This document shows positions 1 through 10,517 of a stretch of 64,000 bases of DNA, piece after piece. Position numbers and translations under genes: made by a program. The stretch is from Deltaproteobacteria bacterium (GTDB taxonomy: Bacteria; Myxococcota; JACPTQ01), in assembly GCA_016192705.1 (NCBI GenBank), contig JACPTQ010000066.1:1-64000 (forward strand), read 5' to 3'. The first letter of the stretch is position 1. Each line of letters begins with the position of its first letter. The notes beneath the pieces are model-generated. The model was given only the letters and a program-made list of their open reading frames with translations. It did not search any database and was not told the origin of the DNA.

Positions 1-29
1 ACCGCTTAACCGGGGATTGGCGAATCATA

Positions 30-479
30 TCAGAATGTCGCGCGACGATAGAAGCGAACCACAAGCATAAGTGGCCGATGGTAAAAGCGAGAGTACGGCG
101 AACAGGCGGCGATGACACGTCCGGCGAGCCTGCGAAATGGGACGGAACGCCCGCGTCGCTCGAGCGACGTTGCGCGCCCGAGAACGAGCGAAGGCGCGAC
201 TCGCAACGCGCCGCCATCGCACGCGTCTCCCTTGACAACAAAACCGGCGCCGTCGATTCCAATGATGCGGTGGAGTTGCCGAATCCGGTCGTCGGCAATC
301 AGAACCACGTCGCCAACACGGAACGAAAGTTCACCACGCGCAAGCGGTTCGAGCCACACGCGATCCCCTTGCCGAATCCATGGCTCCATGCTCGTTCCCG
401 CGACGACGATCGAAGTTCTGTCCCCACGCCGCAGCGTTTCAAGAACAACCGATTCAATCGCCCGCTGGCTTTCATTCAT
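30..479 (-). CDS. S24/S26-type signal-peptidase-like serine protease
   Basis: The 149-residue product has the S26 box with nucleophile Ser30 in AGTSMEPWIRQGDRV, followed by GDVVLI, the LHRIIG segment (His70) and VVKGDA (Lys83). Family knowledge: such short LexA/SipW-like peptidases occur in RiPP clusters beside HprK-like kinases and PqqD proteins, where they may remove leader or signal peptides. It has no obvious N-terminal membrane helix; the C-terminus is moderately hydrophobic (LMLVVRFY). The start ATG at 479 is divergent from the kinase start at 505, leaving only about 25 bases, so promoters must lie inside the genes. Its role in precursor processing is inferred. Confidence 0.8.
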   Translation of the reverse strand: MNESQRAIESVVLETLRRGDRTSIVVAGTSMEPWIRQGDRVWLEPLARGELSFRVGDVVLIADDRIRQLHRIIGIDGAGFVVKGDACDGGALRVAPSLVLGRATSLERRGRSVPFRRLAGRVIAACSPYSRFYHRPLMLVVRFYRRATF

Positions 480-504
480 CGTTCGTTCATGTTACCGAAT
501 TGGA

Positions 505-1296
505 GTGGGCACGACCATCGTCGCAACCGACCTTCTCATCGGCGGCCTTGTCCACCGCGTCCCTTGGTCGCACGACGAAATCTCCGAAATCCTCGGCTCG
601 CATTATTTAGGCTTCGTCGCTCCCTTAACCGAATACGTCCCGGACGTGACGATTCGCCTCTCGTCCAACTTAGCGACTTCGCCCAACGAGCGCTTCCACG
701 ACGCGGCCGACGTACTGGACTGGTCCGGTCCGTTCGGAGCCGTTCGTCTCGACTTCGCACGTTCCGATTGCGCCCTCCTCTGCCTTAACCCGCAGCACAC
801 GTATTGGATTTTTCGGTTCATAACGGGCGCGCTTCTATCGCGCCACGCGGGTCTCCTCCTGCACGGCGCGGCGCTTGTCTTCAACGGCAGCGGTCACCTC
901 TATCTCGGACCCTCGGGCGCCGGGAAGTCGACCCTCGCCCGAGCCGTTGCCCTGCGCAAGGGCACGGTACTGGCCGATGACACGGTGATGGTTCGACTTG
1001 TCGATGGGCAGCCAGTGCTCTACGGGGCACCCTACACGGCGGAGGTAAAATGGATTGGTTGCGCGGCGTCTGCACCGCTCCGTTCGATACACCTTCTCGA
1101 TCGCACGGCGCCGCTCGGCCAGGTTCTTCTCTCGCCATCTCGTGCGACTTCCGTCCTCGTGCGGTCGCTATTTCTGAAGGTCGTCAGCGACCCGCTCAGA
1201 TCTAATTTTCTCGAGACCGCTAAACGACTCGCAGAATCGACCCCAATCGACCGCCTCTCTTACCGCCTCGACAATATCCCGTGGCCCCCGCCTTAA
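505..1296 (+). CDS. HPr-kinase-like ATPase, probable peptide kinase of the RiPP locus
   Basis: The 263-residue product has a P-loop GPSGAGKSTLA (residues 135-145), an upstream LLHGAAL with His120, and an acidic pair in LADDTV (158-159), the arrangement of the C-terminal HprK/Ser kinase domain. It lacks the N-terminal HPr-regulator domain. I chose GTG 505 because the open frame upstream (to 112) lies antisense to the S26 peptidase and reads as low-quality Arg/Ser-rich sequence. Related stand-alone kinases in lasso clusters (PadeK type) phosphorylate the C-terminal Ser of precursor peptides. Here the convergent neighbour encodes a peptide ending in a Ser/Thr-rich tail, so a peptide-kinase role is inferred. 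Confidence 0.75.
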   Translation: MGTTIVATDLLIGGLVHRVPWSHDEISEILGSHYLGFVAPLTEYVPDVTIRLSSNLATSPNERFHDAADVLDWSGPFGAVRLDFARSDCALLCLNPQHTYWIFRFITGALLSRHAGLLLHGAALVFNGSGHLYLGPSGAGKSTLARAVALRKGTVLADDTVMVRLVDGQPVLYGAPYTAEVKWIGCAASAPLRSIHLLDRTAPLGQVLLSPSRATSVLVRSLFLKVVSDPLRSNFLETAKRLAESTPIDRLSYRLDNIPWPPP

Positions 1297-1311
1297 CTCG
1301 AGACCGCCCGG

Positions 1312-1461
1312 CTACCCCGTACTTGGAGATGTTTGGCACTCCTCAAGGTCAATGCCGCAGTGACCGAGCACCACGAACTCGGTTTCGATTTTCTCTGTCA
1401 CAATCTCAGGCTTTTGCCACATCGGCCTCTCTACAATTCCGTCTTTCGTCTCAATATCCAT
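1312..1461 (-). CDS. Candidate RiPP precursor peptide, 49 aa
   Basis: ATG 1461 is preceded by a perfect AGGAGGG (1471-1465), which overlaps the TAG stop of the giant lipoprotein gene, so translation is probably coupled. The peptide has an acidic/basic leader carrying PMWQKPEIVTEKI (residues 13-25), the W/Y-x-K-P-E-hydrophobic pattern typical of leaders bound by PqqD-type domains. A short core follows with Cys35 and Cys42 in LGHCGIDLEEC and a tail containing Thr44, Ser45, Ser47 and Thr48. It is near PqqD, radical SAM/SPASM, HprK-like and S26 genes. The reading frame and ribosome site are visible; the RiPP role is inferred from context. The gene is easily missed by annotation pipelines. Confidence 0.75.
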   Translation of the reverse strand: MDIETKDGIVERPMWQKPEIVTEKIETEFVVLGHCGIDLEECQTSPSTG

Positions 1462-1465
1462 AATC

Positions 1466-1471
1466 CCTCCT
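1466..1471 (-). promoter_or_regulatory. Strong ribosome binding site of the precursor peptide
   Basis: AGGAGG on the minus strand lies four bases before ATG 1461. Its first base is within the TAG stop codon (1470-1472) of the upstream lipoprotein gene. It is one of the best Shine-Dalgarno matches in the window and supports a short coding sequence downstream. Confidence 0.75.
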
Positions 1472-4400
1472 AATACTTAACAAAAAACGACCCACTGCTC
1501 GCCGTCGTTGAAATCATGAAATCCCCAAATGGATCGTTATCCCAGCTAGTAACCTTCATCACCCATGTTCCGATCAACGATCCAACCGGGAACACCATCG
1601 TCACGTCTGGTTTCCCGCCGTTAACCACGCCGAACGGCACGCCGCCGTCCCCCGTCCCGTAATAAAAGAATGCGCCCCCCGCGTTGCCGCCAGCGAGCAG
1701 GTCGACTCGGCCGTCACCCGTAACATCGCCGACCCCGGCGAGACTCTGTCCCACGCTCCCCGCATCGCTTTCCGATCCAGCCAGCAAAAGGAGCGGCTGA
1801 TGCGTGTCGGACAGACAAAGCTCACTCGGCCAGGTGTTTCGCCCATAGACGATATAAATCCTGGCGTCGGCCCCTATCGCAAAATCGTCGCACGGCGTCG
1901 GGCTACAGGCTGCGCCAGAACTCCCCGAAACACGCCCGAGCCCTGCAATCGATTGCGCGAAATTCGGCACGTTGCCCCAGGTCGCCGCATAAGGCGCCTC
2001 GATACGAACGTCGGCTTGGTTGAGCGTGATTGTCGTGCCGACCATTGACGAAAACGACGATTTACCAAGGAAAACCCAGCCGCGGCCCGCATCCGCCGCC
2101 CCCCCGGACAGACTCGCAGACCGAATAAAGAAGTCTTGAATCCCGTCGCCGTTGACATCACCGATCGCCCCCGCGCCGAGGAACGAGCCGATTTCACTGA
2201 CGTTCGGCGCCCCTGGAGTACCGCAAACCGTCGCCGAGGTGTCGGTCCCGTTGATTGTGATCATCCCGCTGGGTCCGATGCGCGCAACAACGCCCGGGGA
2301 CGGCATCGGGGGCCGCTTGCATTCTGGAAGCGACGGGTTGCCGCCGCAGTCCCCTGCGTCGTGCGGTGAACGGGAGGGCCCAAGCCACAGAGACGCTTGT
2401 CCCGAGAATCCACCGTCCTTGGCCTTCGATTCGACGAAGAGCACGTCGGGGACTCCGTCGCCAGTGACGTCACCGAGGGGACGGACAAACAAGGTTCGGG
2501 CGTACGCCGTTTCGCTAAGCTGTGGATTCAAATCGAACCGTACCGGGCTTCCGGCGATGGCGGTCCCATTGGGACCGTATACAAGACCCGCGTCCGACCC
2601 GTAGTAGAGGAACGCCGTTCTCGTCGCTCCGACACCAGCGGTCGTGTTGTTGGTCGCTATCAGAAGGTCGTCGAATCCATCGCCGTCCATGTCGCCAGCA
2701 TTCGCAATCGACTGACCAAACTTTGTAAGCGTCGGGTCGACCCAGAGCGGTGCCGTCAGCGTCTGCATTCCGCCATCGTTGCCCCAAACGATGAAAACCG
2801 AGGCGTCGACCGTCGGATTCTGGTTGAACGCGATGTCGGTGTACCCATCGCCATTGAAATCGCCGGTCGCCATTCGCTGTCCCATGCCCAACGAGCCGGG
2901 ATCCGTCAACGGTCCGTAGACCCGGTCTTCGCGCAGCTGCGTGTTCACAGACACCACTTGGATCGGCGCCGACGTCGACCGGTTCCCCGCGGTGTCAGCG
3001 GCCTCCGTAGCGAAGCAGTACGTGCTTTCCAGGATGAGCCCCGTGACACTCGCGTCCGTTGGTGTTCCTCCAGCCAGAGGCGGCGCCTTCGGGAATCCCG
3101 AAATCGACGCGCCACCGTCGATAACACCAGCATCCTCGACAACAAACGGGCACAACGACCCAACCGCCATTCGCGACGACACCTTGATGTCGAACGACTG
3201 CGCCGTCCCCGACATCCCGTTATCGCCAGGATAGGTCCACGCGAGCGCGACCGTTCCCGCGCGCCGATTGACCGACGCGTCGAGCTGAACGTCCGTGGGC
3301 GCCGTGACGTCGACGTTGACCTGGCACTGCACCGACGCGGGGTTCCCAACGAGGTCCGTCACCGAGGCGGTGAGCGTCTGCGATCCCTCGCTGACGGTCA
3401 GAAGCGGCATGGTCACATAGGTCGATACAACCGTTCCCGTGCCGACGACCCCTTGCGTGCTCCCGGTGAGCGTTAGCGTTTGCCCATCTTCAATCCCTGG
3501 TGTCTGGAACTTGAAGACGTACTGCAATCCCGCCGTCCCGGAGCTGACGTCTGAATACTTGTTGAGCGTGACCGGCTGCGACGTGCAGACCGGGCTATCA
3601 AACACGGGATTGCCAGGCGCCGACACATCGACCGACCAATTCAAGAATGCGCTGTACCCGGCGTCTGCCGTTGAATCAACGACCCTGGCCTGGAAAGTTC
3701 CGATTTCCGCGTCGTTCAGAGTCAACGCGCCGATCCCCGCAAACGTAACCGCGCCTCCCGACAAGTTCCCGGTGGCGATCGCACCGCCATCCTTATAGAG
3801 CGTGACGCAGTTGTCCGAACACGACGTGTAGCTCGAGGAAACCTTGACGGAGACCGCGATCGTCCCTCCATCCACCGTGCCGCACCCAGTTCCGCCATAG
3901 ACGAGCGGTTGCGCGATTTCCGGGTTGCAGTTGTTCGGAGTCGAGCCCGTCGGCTTCACAAAGCTCACCGTCGGACCAGATCCCGTGACGGTCAAATCGT
4001 ACACGGCACTTGTTGTGCAGTTGCCGATCGTGTCGCACCCATACGCGACCAATTTATTCGGACCTGCCGACAAATTGACGCGCAGCACGTCCGGCGAACC
4101 GCCATCAAACACCTTTGATCCAACGGCACTGTAAGTCGTGCCGCCATTGGTCGATGAACGTATGGAGATGGTGCGTCCAGTTTCAATACTCGACGCCGAA
4201 AATACGACGTCGCTCTGGATCCCGGGCGCCGTAAGGTCAACATCGGATGTCGGCGAAGCCGGTCCCGTAACGGCGAACGCGGGGCCGACCGTGTCGATGG
4301 TCACATTGACCGGTGTGGATGTGCACGTGTTGCCGGAAAGGTCCGTCACTTGGATGGTCAGCGCGCTGTTCCCCTGGGCGAGCACGACCGGGATGTTGGG

Positions 4401-5120
4401 CGCCGCTCCACCGGTCATCGCTCCCGAGCCGATAACGCCGCCATCGTCGCGAACATATACGATTTGGCCGTTTTCAGCGCCCGTGACCGTCGACTGAACC
4501 GTGTAGCTCATCGACTGTCCGGCGTCGGTACAGCCACCGGGTGGTGATTCGTTGTCGGTGCATTTCAAGTAGCCCGCAGATGGCCGCGTGATGTAGCAAG
4601 TCGGAGCGGCCGTATCGACCGTGAACGACAGCGTCGCGCCACCCGAAATGGCGTTCCCATCACCCGTGCCGCACGCGTTATCGGTTCCGGCTGCAGACAG
4701 CGTGTGGGCGCCCGATTGGAGCGAAATCGGAACGGTTGCTGTTGCGCCGCTGAGGGGCGCCGATCCAACCGTCGTGCCAGCCTGCGGGTTTGTCGACTTG
4801 ATGCTGATCGTTTTGCCGCTCGCACTCGTGTCGGACAAGGTTACGGTGCATGAGGTCGACGTTTTGTTGATAACACCGCCGTCCATTTCGGGACAGACAA
4901 TCGAGGAAACCGTTGGCGGCACGGTGTCGAGCGTGACCTGCCGCGGATTGGCTGTTGTTCCCACATTTTGCGCCTGTGTTCGGTACCGCCCGCAGAAGGT
5001 GAATGCTCCCGCGTCGAGCGCCGTGCTGGACGAGCTCGACCGTCCCTCCGCTCGCCGTCGCGAGGAACCAACGGAACTCATGGGTAAGCGGCGCCGAGCC
5101 TGGATTCTTCGCGTTCGCAC
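1470..5120 (-). CDS. Giant Ig-repeat/FG-GAP lipoprotein, C-terminal part (after frameshift)
   Basis: This frame continues the protein that starts at 8580; the meaningful part begins near 5031. It holds further bacterial Ig-like repeats, each opening with a V(T)xDxxxP motif such as VTLDTVPPTVSSIVCP, FTVDTAAPTCYITRP and VNVDVTAPTDV. Next comes a fibronectin-like segment (GTVALAWTYPGD). The last 480 or so residues are an FG-GAP/integrin-type beta-propeller with five calcium loops: GDFNGDGYTD, GDMDGDGFDD, GDVTGDGVPD, GDVNGDGIQD and GDVTGDGRVD. The first 30 residues of this open frame (Arg/Ser-rich) are out-of-frame noise. The gene ends with TAG overlapping the ribosome site of the 49-aa peptide gene. 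Confidence 0.8.
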   Translation of the reverse strand: MRTRRIQARRRLPMSSVGSSRRRAEGRSSSSSTALDAGAFTFCGRYRTQAQNVGTTANPRQVTLDTVPPTVSSIVCPEMDGGVINKTSTSCTVTLSDTSASGKTISIKSTNPQAGTTVGSAPLSGATATVPISLQSGAHTLSAAGTDNACGTGDGNAISGGATLSFTVDTAAPTCYITRPSAGYLKCTDNESPPGGCTDAGQSMSYTVQSTVTGAENGQIVYVRDDGGVIGSGAMTGGAAPNIPVVLAQGNSALTIQVTDLSGNTCTSTPVNVTIDTVGPAFAVTGPASPTSDVDLTAPGIQSDVVFSASSIETGRTISIRSSTNGGTTYSAVGSKVFDGGSPDVLRVNLSAGPNKLVAYGCDTIGNCTTSAVYDLTVTGSGPTVSFVKPTGSTPNNCNPEIAQPLVYGGTGCGTVDGGTIAVSVKVSSSYTSCSDNCVTLYKDGGAIATGNLSGGAVTFAGIGALTLNDAEIGTFQARVVDSTADAGYSAFLNWSVDVSAPGNPVFDSPVCTSQPVTLNKYSDVSSGTAGLQYVFKFQTPGIEDGQTLTLTGSTQGVVGTGTVVSTYVTMPLLTVSEGSQTLTASVTDLVGNPASVQCQVNVDVTAPTDVQLDASVNRRAGTVALAWTYPGDNGMSGTAQSFDIKVSSRMAVGSLCPFVVEDAGVIDGGASISGFPKAPPLAGGTPTDASVTGLILESTYCFATEAADTAGNRSTSAPIQVVSVNTQLREDRVYGPLTDPGSLGMGQRMATGDFNGDGYTDIAFNQNPTVDASVFIVWGNDGGMQTLTAPLWVDPTLTKFGQSIANAGDMDGDGFDDLLIATNNTTAGVGATRTAFLYYGSDAGLVYGPNGTAIAGSPVRFDLNPQLSETAYARTLFVRPLGDVTGDGVPDVLFVESKAKDGGFSGQASLWLGPSRSPHDAGDCGGNPSLPECKRPPMPSPGVVARIGPSGMITINGTDTSATVCGTPGAPNVSEIGSFLGAGAIGDVNGDGIQDFFIRSASLSGGAADAGRGWVFLGKSSFSSMVGTTITLNQADVRIEAPYAATWGNVPNFAQSIAGLGRVSGSSGAACSPTPCDDFAIGADARIYIVYGRNTWPSELCLSDTHQPLLLLAGSESDAGSVGQSLAGVGDVTGDGRVDLLAGGNAGGAFFYYGTGDGGVPFGVVNGGKPDVTMVFPVGSLIGTWVMKVTSWDNDPFGDFMISTTASSGSFFVKY

Positions 5121-8100
5121 TGCAGTAGTAAGCCGGGGACGTCAACGGTGTGGTCCAGTCAATCGATGGCTCAGTCAAATTGATGGTGACACCGATCGCC
5201 GTCGACGCAGCATTCCCCGCCACGTCAGACGCCGAAGCCGACAAGATGACGACGCCCGAATCGGGCACGTTGAGGGCGACGTTTGCGAACGTGACCGTTG
5301 AGGCTCCGGCATCATTTACGGTCGCCGTTCCAACGAAGAGGTTTCCGCCGTCGGTCGACGTGCCATCGGTTTTCATGAGCGTCACTTGCCGACCCGGCTC
5401 TAGCCCCGAAACCGCGAGCGTTACATTCTCGTCAAATGTTCCATTCGTCGAGTTGTGGTCATCGCCCTTGACAAGGATTTGGTCGAGCGTCGGGTGTGTG
5501 AACGTGAGCGTCGGCGCCTTGCGATCAACGAGCACCGAAATCGGCGTTCCAGACGCGCCGGCATCAAGTCGATTCTTCGCTTCGACAAAAAGGACGCTTG
5601 CATTCTGATCGGGAAGCGTCACGCGCGCGAACAAAACACCGCCGTCCGACACTTCGACCTGTTCCGTGTAAATGAGGGGCGCGCCGCTGTCGGGTGATAC
5701 GGTGAGCTTCACCGATTGACCAACGTCAACCCCTGTAAGGGCCACAAACGCTGTCTGTTGGAAATCCGCCAGACCATCGATGTCACCCGCGTCCGCGTTG
5801 AAAACGGCACCATTCGGCGGCGAGACGATTGTGTAATTGGGGCCACCATCCCCGTAGGCGACGAGCGAGTAAGTCCGTGAGCGGCCCCCCGAGGTTGAAG
5901 TCGCAAACAGCTGATAGGCACCCTCCGTTGCGAGCGTGATCGCCGCCGTGGCGCTGCAAGCAACCGCGTTCGACGTCGAGCTTGGCCCCGTCGCGAAAAC
6001 CGTGCACCCCTCGCCGCCGCCCGCATCAGCAATCGAGAACGTCACCGCATGGCTCGGCCCCGAAGGCACCGCAAGCCCATCGACCGCTGCGACGCCCGCA
6101 AAGGTCGCGATCGACAACACCGGGAAAGGTCCGCCGTCCGACAGATCGACGTTGAGGGACATCTGGGTCGACGTGGCGTTTTTCGCGCAATCCGTAACCG
6201 TTGCGGTCAAGGGGTTGCCGCCGTGCGCCAACTCAACGTTCGTAAACGTCGCTTTTCCGTCCGCCCCGATGGCCAGCGGGCCCATGGCCAGGAAAGTCCC
6301 AACGCGCAGCGTCGCGAACGACGTCGTCGGCTCACCGCCATCCGTGCTGACAACGATTGTGTAGTGGAAACCACCATCGCCCGGCGTCGCATTGTCGGCC
6401 GCTGTGAGGCTCGCCGGCAGCGCCGTTCCATTCGCGCGCTCAAAGAGCGGCGTCGACGGTCCCGCGTCATCGTGCGTGAGCGCAATCGAAACACTCGCAT
6501 CGTTCCCCGCAAGGTCGACGACACTCGCCGACAAGTTGTTTAGCTGGTTTCCCGCAAGTGGCACGGACGTCACGCATGCGCCTCCGCTGTCATTGACAGT
6601 TCCTGTCGCGCCATTAACGGTCAGCGTGCGCCCCTCTTCCGCGGTCACGTTGAAACAAAGCGTCGGCGCTGCATTCGAAACGCACGACCCCGGAGCCGGT
6701 GACGTCATCGAAATTGTCGGCGTCGAGACGTCAACTGAAACCGCCACGGATTCGCTAAAATAAACCGCGTCGTTGGCATTACCGGGACTACCCACGACAA
6801 GCCGGAGCGTATGATTGCCCGGCGGAAGCGCGACGTTGCGCAGCGCCCCGCTGAAGGTGCCGCCGTCAATTTCGCAGTCTTGCGCGGCCGTTGTTGGGCA
6901 CGCCGATTTGTCACTCGAACAATCGCACTGCGAAACGCCACCATTGACAAGCAGGCGAACCTTCCGGCCCGACAGCGATCCAGCCGTGTACGGAACGTTG
7001 AGCTCAAGAAGATTTGGTGTGCCGCTCGGATCGAGGTCGTCCGACTTCTTGTACGCTTTTCCTGCGAGCGCCGACGAAATCGCGATGTAGGCCGTGAGCG
7101 GATCGTAGTTAAGGACGTAGTCGGTGGGCGAAGCGGTCGACGAGTAGGTCGATGCCGCGTTGCCGGTTGGATCGGTCGCGACGATGCGAATCCGGTTTTC
7201 GCCGACCGAAAGGGGCACGCACGGGAAAGAGTACGACTGCGAGCCGCCGGTCAGCGTTCGATATCCCGCGTCCCCATTCTCGGTACCCGCCGTTGGGAGC
7301 GAGCCTTTGAACAAGGTCACCGCTAGAACCTCGCCCGCCGACCCGCTCACGCTGGCCGAAATGTTGTAGCTCGCGCCCGCGTCAGCACACTCCGCGGGAA
7401 TCTTTGTGGGGTCGAGTGATGTCGTCCGCACGCCCTCCAGAGGGGTGACCATGGTTATCGTCGGCGATGTGATGTCGACCGAGACCGCCGACGTTGACGC
7501 GTCCGGCGTTTGCTGCCCAACAACGCACGCGACCAACGTGTGCGCGCCCTCGTTCAACGTCGTGTTCGAAAAGACCGCCGTGAAACCCGACGGGCCAGCA
7601 TCGACACCCGCAGACGCGGACGCTCCGGCATCGGCCGCCGTCACGCAGTTCGTCACGCCGCCGGTCGGGTCGACCCAGAGAAACGCGGTCCCCGGGCACC
7701 CGCTTGTGACGACGACGTCAAGTTGCAGCCCCGCGTCACCGCTCTTGTCGTCTTTCTTCCCAAGCTTTGCGTTGTTGGCTGGCGTGAGCGCGACGGTGCA
7801 GACGCCACTGACGGTCACGGTGATCTGCTTCGAGTAAGTTGTTTGTCCAACCGTTGCGGAAGCTGTGAGTGTATCCGTGCCATCCGGGAATGACGGAACG
7901 GGGCTCGCGAACGTCGCTTCAACGTAACTTCCTGAGAGCGCCGCAATCGCCGTGTAGGTCTGGCTGTAACTGAGGCCCACATTCGCGAGGACAAGTTGAA
8001 TCGTTTGGCCATCGCCAATGTTGCAAGCGCGAACCGTGATGCGCTTTTGAAGGAGCGGCGCGATCGGGTCTTCGTCGTCACCGGCTCCCGCATCACCCGA

Positions 8101-8580
8101 TGACGTCAACGTCGCGCCGTCCGACGGGGATACAAATGTGAGCCCCTCTTTCGCGCCAACTTGAACTGTCACTTGGTTCGCCGCGCTCGTCCCTTGAATG
8201 GCAACGGTTATCTTATAGTTCGTTGAATTCTCAGGAACCGTTACGCCGCCAAATGTAACGCAAGCGGCGTCCGACCCCGCATCTCCCGTGCAGGCGCCTG
8301 ATATATCTTTAACAATGACGGCGGTCGCATCATCGCCCAAATAGAGCGCCAGTTTTTGCCCGGCCGCTGCGCCCGTCACCTGAACCCGAATGTCGATTTG
8401 GATTCCCTGCAACGTCGCGTTCACGTCGTCGCAACCGTCTAGGATTCGTCCGCTGGAGGGCGACAGAATAACGACCGTCGGTGCACCCGGCTTGTCGTCC
8501 GAACACGAACAGGAGGGCGCACCGCCTCCGATAACAAGCGCCGTCAAGAGCGCCAACTTGGCCTTCACCGGTCGTCTCAT
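4678..8580 (-). CDS. Giant Ig-repeat lipoprotein, N-terminal part (before frameshift)
   Basis: ATG 8580 is chosen over the upstream in-frame ATG because it starts a lipoprotein signal (MRRPVKAKLALLTALVIGG, then Ala-Pro-Ser-Cys). After a short Cys/Asp-rich segment come about a dozen Ig-like domains of roughly 100 residues with recurring openings (VSVDITSPTITMVTP, VSVDVSTPTISMTSP, VLVDRKAPTLTFTHP, VTINLTEPSIDWTTP). The sense frame ends near 5031; the remaining residues to 4678 are out-of-frame. Joined with the 1470-5120 frame, the full protein would be about 2370 residues, an outer-membrane-anchored surface protein. It sits between the radical SAM gene and the precursor gene on the same strand. 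Confidence 0.8.
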   Translation of the reverse strand: MRRPVKAKLALLTALVIGGGAPSCSCSDDKPGAPTVVILSPSSGRILDGCDDVNATLQGIQIDIRVQVTGAAAGQKLALYLGDDATAVIVKDISGACTGDAGSDAACVTFGGVTVPENSTNYKITVAIQGTSAANQVTVQVGAKEGLTFVSPSDGATLTSSGDAGAGDDEDPIAPLLQKRITVRACNIGDGQTIQLVLANVGLSYSQTYTAIAALSGSYVEATFASPVPSFPDGTDTLTASATVGQTTYSKQITVTVSGVCTVALTPANNAKLGKKDDKSGDAGLQLDVVVTSGCPGTAFLWVDPTGGVTNCVTAADAGASASAGVDAGPSGFTAVFSNTTLNEGAHTLVACVVGQQTPDASTSAVSVDITSPTITMVTPLEGVRTTSLDPTKIPAECADAGASYNISASVSGSAGEVLAVTLFKGSLPTAGTENGDAGYRTLTGGSQSYSFPCVPLSVGENRIRIVATDPTGNAASTYSSTASPTDYVLNYDPLTAYIAISSALAGKAYKKSDDLDPSGTPNLLELNVPYTAGSLSGRKVRLLVNGGVSQCDCSSDKSACPTTAAQDCEIDGGTFSGALRNVALPPGNHTLRLVVGSPGNANDAVYFSESVAVSVDVSTPTISMTSPAPGSCVSNAAPTLCFNVTAEEGRTLTVNGATGTVNDSGGACVTSVPLAGNQLNNLSASVVDLAGNDASVSIALTHDDAGPSTPLFERANGTALPASLTAADNATPGDGGFHYTIVVSTDGGEPTTSFATLRVGTFLAMGPLAIGADGKATFTNVELAHGGNPLTATVTDCAKNATSTQMSLNVDLSDGGPFPVLSIATFAGVAAVDGLAVPSGPSHAVTFSIADAGGGEGCTVFATGPSSTSNAVACSATAAITLATEGAYQLFATSTSGGRSRTYSLVAYGDGGPNYTIVSPPNGAVFNADAGDIDGLADFQQTAFVALTGVDVGQSVKLTVSPDSGAPLIYTEQVEVSDGGVLFARVTLPDQNASVLFVEAKNRLDAGASGTPISVLVDRKAPTLTFTHPTLDQILVKGDDHNSTNGTFDENVTLAVSGLEPGRQVTLMKTDGTSTDGGNLFVGTATVNDAGASTVTFANVALNVPDSGVVILSASASDVAGNAASTAIGVTINLTEPSIDWTTPLTSPAYYCSANAKNPGSAPLTHEFRWFLATASGGTVELVQHGARRGSIHLLRAVPNTGAKCGNNSQSAAGHARHRAANGFLDCLSRNGRRCYQQNVDLMHRNLVRHECERQNDQHQVDKPAGWHDGWIGAPQRRNSNRSDFAPIGRPHAVCSRNR

Positions 8581-8634
8581 CCCATCACCCCACGAAAACA
8601 ACACTGGGCTTTATCCTCATCTTCATCCAGCCAC

Positions 8635-8732
8635 CTTAAAGGTCGGGTTCGGGCTCCGTTCCGTCGCCCTCCCCATTTTCGCCGCGCTGACGACCCACTG
8701 GGTCGTCAGCCATTGCGGCGAAAATTGGAAGC
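8635..8732 (+). repeat. Structured palindromic repeat, copy 1
   Basis: The element begins TTAAAGGTCGGGTTCGGGCTC, has a GGGC/GCCC hairpin, then an outer stem ATTTTCGCCGC (from 8685) paired with GCGGCGAAAAT (ending near 8727) that encloses a perfect inner hairpin GCTGACGACCCA / TGGGTCGTCAGC. The same architecture with different stem sequences recurs at 31344 and 62063. This copy covers the 3' end of the radical SAM gene, including its stop codon. Confidence 0.75.
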
Positions 8733-9775
8733 CGCCGCTTGTGCTCCTCGACGGCCAGCCGTTTGGCGTTCGATTGTTCGCACATCGACGCCGTCGGCGA
8801 AAGCAGCGTTTTTGTCACCTGCCATGAGTTCGCCATGCAAAAACTACAATACTTTGCGTTTTCGCACCGTTTGCAGTCTTCACGGTCCTTTCTCGCTATC
8901 TCGCGTATCTGCTTCAGAACGTCTGAACTCCTCCAAATATCAGCGAGCGGTCTTTGTCGAACATTGCCTGCCGAAAGGCCACCCATGAGCGCACACCCCT
9001 GAACATCGCCGATCGGGTTGATGTAAACGGTCGACCGCGCCGCGCCGCAATTGGCGCTGTCGTCAAATTTCGCGGCCGGCGCTTTGGCGAGCGCGTAGAG
9101 CGTCGACTCGTTCCACGGCTCGAGATAAACGTTCGGCAGCTCGCACGACGGTGTCGCCACGGAAAGCGTGTGCAGCTCGCCGCTGTAGGTCGGCTGGATC
9201 TGCGGCGAAATCTTGATCGGGATTTTTCGCGACTTGGCGAAGTCGGTGAGTTCTTTGGTGGAACCAAAATTGTATCGCGTCACGGGGCAGGCAAGCACAA
9301 CGCGAACGCCCGCCGCAACAAGAAGGTCGATGGCGTGAAGTGACTTTGCGTGCGAACCCGGAACGCGCGTAATTTTCTCGTGAACGCACGGGTCGATCGA
9401 ATAAAAGCTGATCTGCACTTCACTCACATGCCGCGCGAGCAGCATCGCAACGCGCGCTTCGTCGATGAAATTGCCGTGTGTGTAAAGCTTCGTGCAAAAC
9501 CGCAAGCGATCGGCGGCGGCAAGAATGTCGTCGAGGTCTTTTCGTAAAAAAACTTCGCCCCCTGAAAGCGTCAGGAAAAGTGTGCCGAGCGCCGCGAGGT
9601 CTTCGAGGACCTTGACCACTTCCACGGTCGACAACTCGGTGCCGCCGAATTGCGATGGGAGAATGCAGTGCTCGCAGATGAAGTTGCAGCGGTAGGTCGT
9701 ATCGATGTGCGCCGAGATCGGTACGTTGAGCGCACGCGCCTTCTGTGAGATGGCTTGGAGCGGCGTCATGGGCAT
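8636..9775 (-). CDS. Radical SAM/SPASM domain peptide-modifying enzyme
   Basis: The 379-residue product carries the radical SAM cluster motif CNFICEHC (Cys30, Cys34, Cys37) and the SAM-binding LSGGE (residues 70-74). Its SPASM domain has seven cysteines in canonical spacing (243, 261, 301, 304, 310, 313, 332). SPASM enzymes use extra 4Fe-4S clusters to install thioether or C-C crosslinks or to epimerise residues in RiPP precursors. It starts four bases after the PqqD gene, the usual coupling of leader-binding partner and enzyme. The last 31 or so residues (349-379, Glu/Gly/Pro-rich) are encoded by a palindromic repeat and are probably not part of the native fold. The substrate is inferred to be the 49-aa peptide. 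Confidence 0.9.
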   Translation of the reverse strand: MPMTPLQAISQKARALNVPISAHIDTTYRCNFICEHCILPSQFGGTELSTVEVVKVLEDLAALGTLFLTLSGGEVFLRKDLDDILAAADRLRFCTKLYTHGNFIDEARVAMLLARHVSEVQISFYSIDPCVHEKITRVPGSHAKSLHAIDLLVAAGVRVVLACPVTRYNFGSTKELTDFAKSRKIPIKISPQIQPTYSGELHTLSVATPSCELPNVYLEPWNESTLYALAKAPAAKFDDSANCGAARSTVYINPIGDVQGCALMGGLSAGNVRQRPLADIWRSSDVLKQIREIARKDREDCKRCENAKYCSFCMANSWQVTKTLLSPTASMCEQSNAKRLAVEEHKRRLPIFAAMADDPVGRQRGENGEGDGTEPEPDL

Positions 9776-9779
9776 CGGG

Positions 9780-10085
9780 TCACCCCCCTCCCTTCACCAG
9801 GACGCCCCGCGAGACCATCTCCGTCATGAGGTCGTCCACGTCTCGAAGAATCGCGTCGGGCGCCCCGCTAAACTCGGCCGTCAGCGTCGCCACAATCTCA
9901 TCGGTGGTCTTATCATTGAGCACAAGTTCCAAAATCCGCGTCGCAGTTCCGTTCAGGCGATGCGTCAATGCACCATCGCGCGTTATGAGAAAAGCTTCGC
10001 CGCCGATTTTCCGCCACGCGATGTCCGGGCTAAGTTCATAGCGACACCGACTCGCCGACGCTTGCGTTTTCTCACCCACCATCAT
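9780..10085 (-). CDS. PqqD-family RiPP leader-binding protein
   Basis: The 101-residue product matches the PqqD/RRE fold pattern: an N-terminal strand RYELSPDIAWRKIGGEAFLI, then LTHRLNGTATRILELVLNDKTTDEIVATLTAEF, and a C-terminal helix ending LMTEMVSRGVLVK. PqqD proteins bind the leader of a precursor peptide and present it to the radical SAM enzyme. The gene is immediately upstream of that enzyme. Two consecutive ATG codons (10085, 10082) could start it; GAAGG lies just upstream. It is not part of a PQQ operon: pqqA, pqqB and pqqC are absent. Confidence 0.85.
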   Translation of the reverse strand: MMVGEKTQASASRCRYELSPDIAWRKIGGEAFLITRDGALTHRLNGTATRILELVLNDKTTDEIVATLTAEFSGAPDAILRDVDDLMTEMVSRGVLVKGGG

Positions 10086-10517
10086 ACTCGACCTTCAGTA
10101 TTGCAAACGAACCCCTCAGATTCCAGTCGGAAACCCTTTGTTCCCCAGAAAGCGGAGGGGAGTCGCGTTGGTCGGGCAGGGTCTGGGTTCGCTCCGGCTC
10201 GCGGAAGTCCTCGGGTCTGATGTGACGTGCGAAACCGTGCAGCACCTATCAAACATTTTGAAGACCGCAATTCCATGATGTATCGGCACCTCATCCCCTG
10301 CGGACGCGAGCCGCCGCTCACCCAGCCCCTGTCCGACCCAACACCATCCCGCCGTTTTCCGGGAACGACACGGCAGAGGCTTGAGGGTGGACCGATCGCT
10401 CGCCGACACGCAGCGGTTGGGTTCTTCGCGGCGCCCTCAAGCCTAAGAATCGCCTCGCGGGTGCCTTGGCCACGGACTTGAGTCGAGTCGACCTGGTGTC
10501 GCGATCCAAGAGCCGAA
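10086..10517. other. Intergenic stretch without a recognised gene
   Basis: These 432 bases separate queA from the PqqD gene. Open frames here have poor composition and no convincing ribosome site. I saw no tRNA, terminator with a T-tract, or copy of the window's repeats. The promoter of the PqqD/radical SAM genes should be in this stretch on the minus strand, but I could not find a clear -35/-10 pair. Confidence 0.5.

Follow-up and report, generated by a model that had tools for sequence, protein, structure and literature searches.

Gene content of the locus and its precursor peptide

We analysed a locus for a putative ribosomally synthesized and post-translationally modified peptide (RiPP) in a deltaproteobacterial genome (GCA_016192705.1; 5.2 Mb, 88 contigs), where it sits at the start of a 122-kb contig (JACPTQ010000066.1, G000:C58) and is cut off at base 1; the first 64 kb of this contig are referred to as the window. 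On the minus strand, genes for a PqqD-type RiPP recognition element (RRE), a radical SAM/SPASM enzyme, a giant lipoprotein and a 49-codon precursor peptide follow one another closely enough for one operon, and they are succeeded by a plus-strand gene for an HprK-like kinase, convergent with the peptide gene, and a minus-strand gene for an S26 peptidase (Table 1). The sequence-only reading had described this as a RiPP locus, and the PqqD protein, SPASM radical SAM enzyme, 49-codon peptide, HprK-like kinase and S26 peptidase were all found where it placed them. A RiPP-type maturation locus with a conserved precursor was upheld; however, that reading treated it as a stand-alone natural-product cluster and overlooked the giant gene, which takes up most of the stretch 1-10085 and lies between the radical SAM gene and the precursor gene. 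Comparison across genomes shows that the giant is the most constant neighbour of the peptide.

Table 1. Features of the locus, with positions in the window
Feature	Position	Strand	Basis
Precursor peptide, 49 aa, MDIETKDGIVERPMWQKPEIVTEKIETEFVVLGHCGIDLEECQTSPSTG	1312..1461	-	Conserved family at the same position in many homologous loci
RRE-binding motif W15-x-x-P18	1408..1419	-	Pro invariant in alignment; [Y/W]xxP motif of RREs of linear polyphosphorylated peptides (LPP) and lasso peptides (PMC13381572)
Predicted 22-aa core EFVVLGHCGIDLEECQTSPSTG, after putative K-I-E-T27/E28 cleavage	1315..1380	-	Cleavage after FET in LPP; FE(R/T) of relatives
Shine-Dalgarno AGGAGG of peptide gene, abutting the giant's stop codon	1466..1471	-	Sequence
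Giant lipoprotein, ~2,370 aa read across a frame change, probable ATG 8580	1470..8604	-	Lipoprotein-like signal, Big_13 immunoglobulin (Ig)-like domains, FG-GAP repeats
C-terminal FG-GAP beta-propeller of the giant, family-defining part	1470..3062	-	PF01839/PF13517
PqqD-type RRE, 101 aa	9780..10085	-	PF05402 44.5 bits, cut-off 23.4
Radical SAM/SPASM maturase, 379 aa	8636..9775	-	PF04055 59.3 bits, PF13186 41.7 bits
HprK-like kinase, 263 aa, GTG start; H, GPSGAGKST and DD catalytic motifs	505..1296	+	PF07475 22.7 bits, below cut-off 33.3
S26-like archaeal-type peptidase, 149 aa, predicted leader peptidase	30..479	-	Pfam 20.4 bits, below cut-off 22.9

The short frame is confirmed to be more than a chance open reading frame (ORF), since its family recurs at the equivalent site of many homologous loci, where the relatives carry [Y/W]xxP leaders. 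The outcome that the sequence-only reading had named as refuting, a 49-codon frame not conserved at such loci, did not occur. It starts 8 nt past the end of the giant gene, with AGGAGG just 5' of the ATG as the ribosome site already noticed from the sequence. The W-x-K-P-E-I motif previously singled out in the leader is also present, but corresponds to the [Y/W]xxP motif by which RREs generally bind leaders. The window peptide has two core cysteines (Cys35 and Cys42), no Tyr and a C-terminal Gly. Among 50 peptides of the radical SAM type, the spacing from the leader aromatic residue to the first Cys was 18-21 residues in nearly all, the few exceptions having either an extra Cys within the motif or a core that is shifted or poor in Cys.

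A C-terminal Ser was present in 37 of the 50 radical-SAM-type peptides (L060-L163) versus 7.5% of other ORFs, counts in which related sequences are treated as independent (save in a reduction to 50% identity, 27/39) and for which precursors were partly selected by hand. Phosphorylation of a C-terminal Ser by HprK, as in paeninodin, was considered and rejected: none of 20 peptides of other types, which likewise have HprK, ends in Ser, and nor does the window peptide. Judged by these sequence counts, the C-terminal Ser tracks the SPASM subtype and not the kinase, for which reason no C-terminal phosphoserine is claimed for the window peptide. Outside the window, one locus (L092) encodes three radical SAM genes plus several WSKPELIVLVRG peptides, every one ending in Ser, and another (L181, genome G022, positions 9469-9985, minus strand) has two extra tandem precursors of the window-like type, both Ser-ending, with maturation genes absent from the fetched 15 kb.

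The locus encodes the sole PqqD match in the genome. In the radical SAM enzyme, for which SkfB and PqqE are the nearest solved structures, the CxxxCxxC motif and most SPASM cysteines are invariant or nearly so across 18 relatives. The final ~33 codons of its gene (8640-8735) fall in a dispersed hairpin repeat of ~90 bp with ~40 copies in the genome, so that insertion of a repeat may have replaced the native 3' end. Despite its sub-cut-off sequence score, the HprK identity of the kinase was confirmed at the level of predicted fold, its AlphaFold2 model (predicted local distance difference test, pLDDT, 85) matching the PEPCK/HPr-kinase fold (Foldseek E 2.5e-9 for PEPCK and 3e-6 for HprK), and the catalytic His, P-loop and Asp residues are kept across relatives. 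For the peptidase, the best model was TIGR02228 (34.1 bits, below the cut-off of 51.85), and a Ser30/His70/Asp85 triad plus Met31 is conserved among relatives.

Relatives of the locus and the pairing of peptide and giant

Homologues of the radical SAM enzyme were detected in 24 of 58 genomes of the same phylum (inferred to be Myxococcota; the window's own counted), surrounded by HprK, S26, often PqqD, and short ORFs with [Y/W]xxP leaders. Used alone as a GTDB query, the window's radical SAM protein returned no relatives, whereas an alignment-based scan did (the HprK alignment proved too poorly conserved for use as a query), and related sets occurred in genomes of Solibacteraceae, Elusimicrobia, Omnitrophota, Nitrospirae, Chloroflexota, Aminicenantes, Verrucomicrobia and Desulfobulbaceae. 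Window-like loci (type A) share the precursor pattern YxKPxIxxExxFE(R/T)xxLxC, and a profile of these peptides had matches in 17 of the 195 phylum genomes (window's included), mostly at these loci. Type B loci have the precursor pattern YxPPxIxxvxixxEEAvlxxCK...GS and the gene order PqqD-radical SAM-peptide-HprK-S26. Type D loci do without a radical SAM gene (PqqD-giant-peptide-HprK-S26) and belong to genomes of 9-13 Mb from a single, Myxococcaceae-like (inferred) family.

The giant is a distinct protein family. A profile of its C-terminal propeller had one match per genome in 62 of the 195 phylum genomes, with E-values of ~1e-54 or better and nearly all matches full-length, while generic FG-GAP proteins ranked far below as partial matches of ~170 aa. 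By a simple rule, 19 of 23 giants have a lipoprotein-like signal. The AlphaFold2 model of the propeller, at moderate confidence (pLDDT 68), resembles the propellers of integrin-alpha (Foldseek E 2.8e-8), whose heads bind peptide ligands jointly with the beta subunit. In the window, the giant gene is split into two overlapping frames (8604-4678 and 5120-1470), the reading frame changing near 5,000-5,050 through either a frameshift or an error of assembly; complete giant genes of relatives are single open frames.

Directly 5' of the peptide gene, window-type loci encode a giant that has these domains and is ~2,000-2,800 aa long (truncated by the contig end in L180 and L076). The peptide gene lay -10 to +46 nt from the stop codon of the FG-GAP/Ig giant at most window-type loci and at all type D loci tabulated, with a distance of 132 nt in L101. 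As a prospective test, ~4 kb of downstream sequence was fetched for 27 giants that had not been found via HprK, and 25 of them were followed by a [YWF]xxP peptide rich in K/R, whose start lay between -32 and +28 nt of the stop codon, often with a 4-nt overlap (24 by an automatic rule and L224 by inspection; L222 and L236 were without a peptide). The same rule applied to other ORFs gave 54 of 2,207 (at most 2.4%), about half of these being genuine precursors that follow a radical SAM gene or another maturation gene; background and prospective tests use one motif definition, which was set after earlier loci had been seen. The pair was also present at six loci (L212, L214, L217, L219, L226 and L239) where the ~4 kb inspected downstream contained none of the HprK, S26 and radical SAM genes, and it is retained in about a dozen bacterial families. 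Therefore, the giant-peptide pair is the most conserved unit, and the enzymes vary. No precedent for this pairing was found in the open-access literature, subscription papers being mostly outside coverage. The novelty lies less in which enzymes are combined than in the conserved association between a giant surface lipoprotein and the precursor of a modified peptide.

Cys-rich YxxP peptides with several core cysteines follow the giants of L212, L214, L217-L219, L224, L226, L227, L238 and L239, in whose fetched downstream stretches HprK, S26 and radical SAM genes were not found. In a third arrangement, again from Myxococcaceae-like genomes, a BamB-like (PQQ_2) propeller protein of ~1,030 aa replaces the giant: L186, L187, L188, L189, L200 and L202 have the order S26-PqqD-BamB-like propeller-peptide-HprK, with a peptide of the pattern YxxPAILWEQPFVALAQxSxCxIPGESECxP. 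Here the YxxP peptide has as its partner a second kind of large secreted propeller protein.

Comparison with known peptide systems

The sequence-only reading knew of no such enzyme combination without a lasso cyclase, a claim that holds only in part, given the linear polyphosphorylated peptides of Bacillota (Popov et al., May 2026), described from the lpp cluster of Paenibacillus alginolyticus, whose core set consists of an RRE, an HprK-like kinase, an archaeal-type Ser/His/Asp S26 leader peptidase and a [Y/W]xxP precursor, without a cyclase (PMC13381572). In experiments, the RRE, kinase and S26 peptidase phosphorylated the precursor (at core Ser3) and cleaved it after F-E-T; what LPP and paeninodin peptides do for their producers is not known (PMC13381572). 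The window shares with LPP the discrete RRE, the HprK-like kinase with its catalytic residues, the Ser/His/Asp S26 peptidase, the [Y/W]xxP leader and an (F/I)-E-T before the core. However, the LPP leader consensus YxxPxVLxHQxIxFETxxS is not matched by the window peptide beyond W15xxP18 and (I)ET. LPP clusters also have an MsbA-like transporter and an NTP transferase; no ABC pattern was seen in the first 20 kb of the window, where the locus is cut at base 1, or in 21 related loci. The window in turn adds the SPASM enzyme, core cysteines and the upstream giant lipoprotein, and its hosts are not Bacillota. The set with its added radical SAM enzyme recurs in several phyla.

The SPASM enzyme with an RRE gives the locus a likeness to sactipeptide and ranthipeptide systems, whose products carry a Cys thioether (two core cysteines are present in the window peptide), and the logic of PqqD plus a SPASM radical SAM enzyme recalls pyrroloquinoline quinone (PQQ) and SkfB systems, from which the window differs by its kinase and S26 peptidase. 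PQQ itself was rejected, the Tyr-less peptide offering no PqqA-type Glu/Tyr substrate and the equivalog scores being low (PqqE 105.6 vs 381, PqqD 24.2 vs 46), as were mycofactocin (radical SAM equivalog score 121.5 vs a cut-off of 265) and the HPr-rel-A system of NCBIfam (HprK_rel_A 23.9 vs 200, PqqD_rel_X 14.4 vs 35). The NCBIfam cassettes SynChlorMet (ScmC, ScmD, ScmE/F) and HPr-rel-A include PqqD-like proteins with other modification proteins, but the PqqD, kinase and radical SAM proteins of the window match these models weakly, far under the curated cut-offs. In quinohemoprotein amine dehydrogenase, QhpC (with QhpD/QhpE) is a small, radical-SAM-modified and leader-cleaved subunit of a larger extracytoplasmic protein, and we cite it as an analogy for a modified peptide as subunit, with no homology to the window peptide claimed.

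Proposed maturation, alternative explanations and a neighbouring repeat

The locus probably brings a ribosomal peptide to maturity, and this peptide probably acts in concert with the giant surface lipoprotein whose gene lies just 5' of its own. From the observed gene content, residues, conservation and adjacency, we infer modification, cleavage, export and binding as follows. The PqqD protein would bind the leader at W15-x-x-P18 and hand the precursor over for modification. In the core, the SPASM enzyme would most likely form a thioether at Cys35 and/or Cys42, although other radical chemistry is also conceivable, and the HprK-like kinase would phosphorylate a hydroxyl residue, probably in the Thr44-Ser45-Ser47-Thr48 (TSPST) tail. 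The archaeal-type S26 peptidase would then remove the leader, probably after Ile-Glu-Thr27. The giant would be exported as a lipoprotein with its propeller facing outward, and the mature peptide of ~22 residues could serve outside the cell as a ligand, subunit or decoration of the propeller head.

We favour this cooperation because RRE, SPASM, HprK and S26 recur jointly around [Y/W]xxP peptides in many loci, because the catalytic residues of the kinase, peptidase and radical SAM/SPASM enzyme are kept, and because the LPP enzyme set has been shown to phosphorylate and cleave a [Y/W]xxP precursor (PMC13381572). The near-fixed position of the first Cys in radical-SAM-type peptides argues in the same direction, as do the adjoining of the peptide gene to the giant's stop codon, the single-copy occurrence of the giant in 62 genomes, the pairing of 25 of the 27 new giants and the lipoprotein-like signals. 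Several points weigh against it. The giant of the window is frameshifted, so the pair in this genome may be broken or misassembled; co-transcription is no proof of interaction; type B loci lack the giant, their similar peptide sitting between the radical SAM gene and HprK; and a scan for LSGG(Q/E/M) plus Walker A found no ABC exporter in the window's first 20 kb or in 21 related loci.

Conservation of the pair suggests that the peptide, once modified, functions jointly with the surface protein and is not a free, antibiotic-like product. Radical-SAM-containing and radical-SAM-less cousins of LPP and paeninodin are tied to one surface-protein family, which leads to the hypothesis that the peptide is part of, or a ligand for, the giant lipoprotein. 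More tentatively, and with somewhat more doubt than conviction, this could be generalized to a module of two genes that spans the phylum: each giant FG-GAP/Ig surface lipoprotein would have a small RRE-leader peptide of its own, linked to it by translational coupling, and the enzyme sets would be lineage-specific (none seen nearby, HprK+S26, or HprK+S26+radical SAM). RiPP chemistry would here supply a surface propeller with a permanent ligand or subunit, not make a diffusible product. The large radical-SAM-less Myxococcaceae-like group should include cultivable species, so the role of the peptide is genetically testable.

That the enzymes functionally match those of LPP, and that type B loci keep the same enzyme set without a giant, would also fit a free-standing LPP-like RiPP, i.e., a secreted, phosphorylated and thioether-bearing signal or antimicrobial for which the giant is an immunity factor, a receptor or a co-transcribed surface gene. 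However, we consider this rather unlikely, given that the pair is kept at the six loci with no enzymes found downstream and that no transporter was seen nearby. The same persistence of the pair without nearby enzymes would suit a small protein that serves the giant in a chaperone-like or regulatory role, with an unmodified core and enzymes directed at another target; conservation of the RRE-binding motif, the near-fixed first Cys and the activity of published RRE/HprK/S26 sets on such peptides make this improbable.

The bsf lasso cluster of Bradymonas has an HprK-like kinase, BsfK, whose activity depends on His, P-loop and Asp-Asp residues, and a flanking FG-GAP protein that was judged 'presumably not involved' (PMC10368454). 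Although this neighbour and the RRE, [Y/W]xxP leader and HprK-like kinase with BsfK's catalytic residues shared with paeninodin and bsf invite the idea of a degenerate or incomplete lasso cluster, it is very improbable for the window, where S26 and radical SAM are conserved instead, the lasso leader protease B2 (PF13471) has no match on the contig and only weak ones on other contigs, and no cyclase was noticed at the locus or its relatives (no profile search was aimed at one). If the peptide instead cooperates with the giant, as we propose, the FG-GAP gene beside the bsf cluster gains new meaning (PMC10368454).

Finally, an Rfam search of the window's first 20 kb returned no RNA element, and none for a repeat family of ~280 bp that includes the intergenic stretch 10165-10450 upstream of the PqqD gene and has ~40 copies in the genome at ~74% identity.

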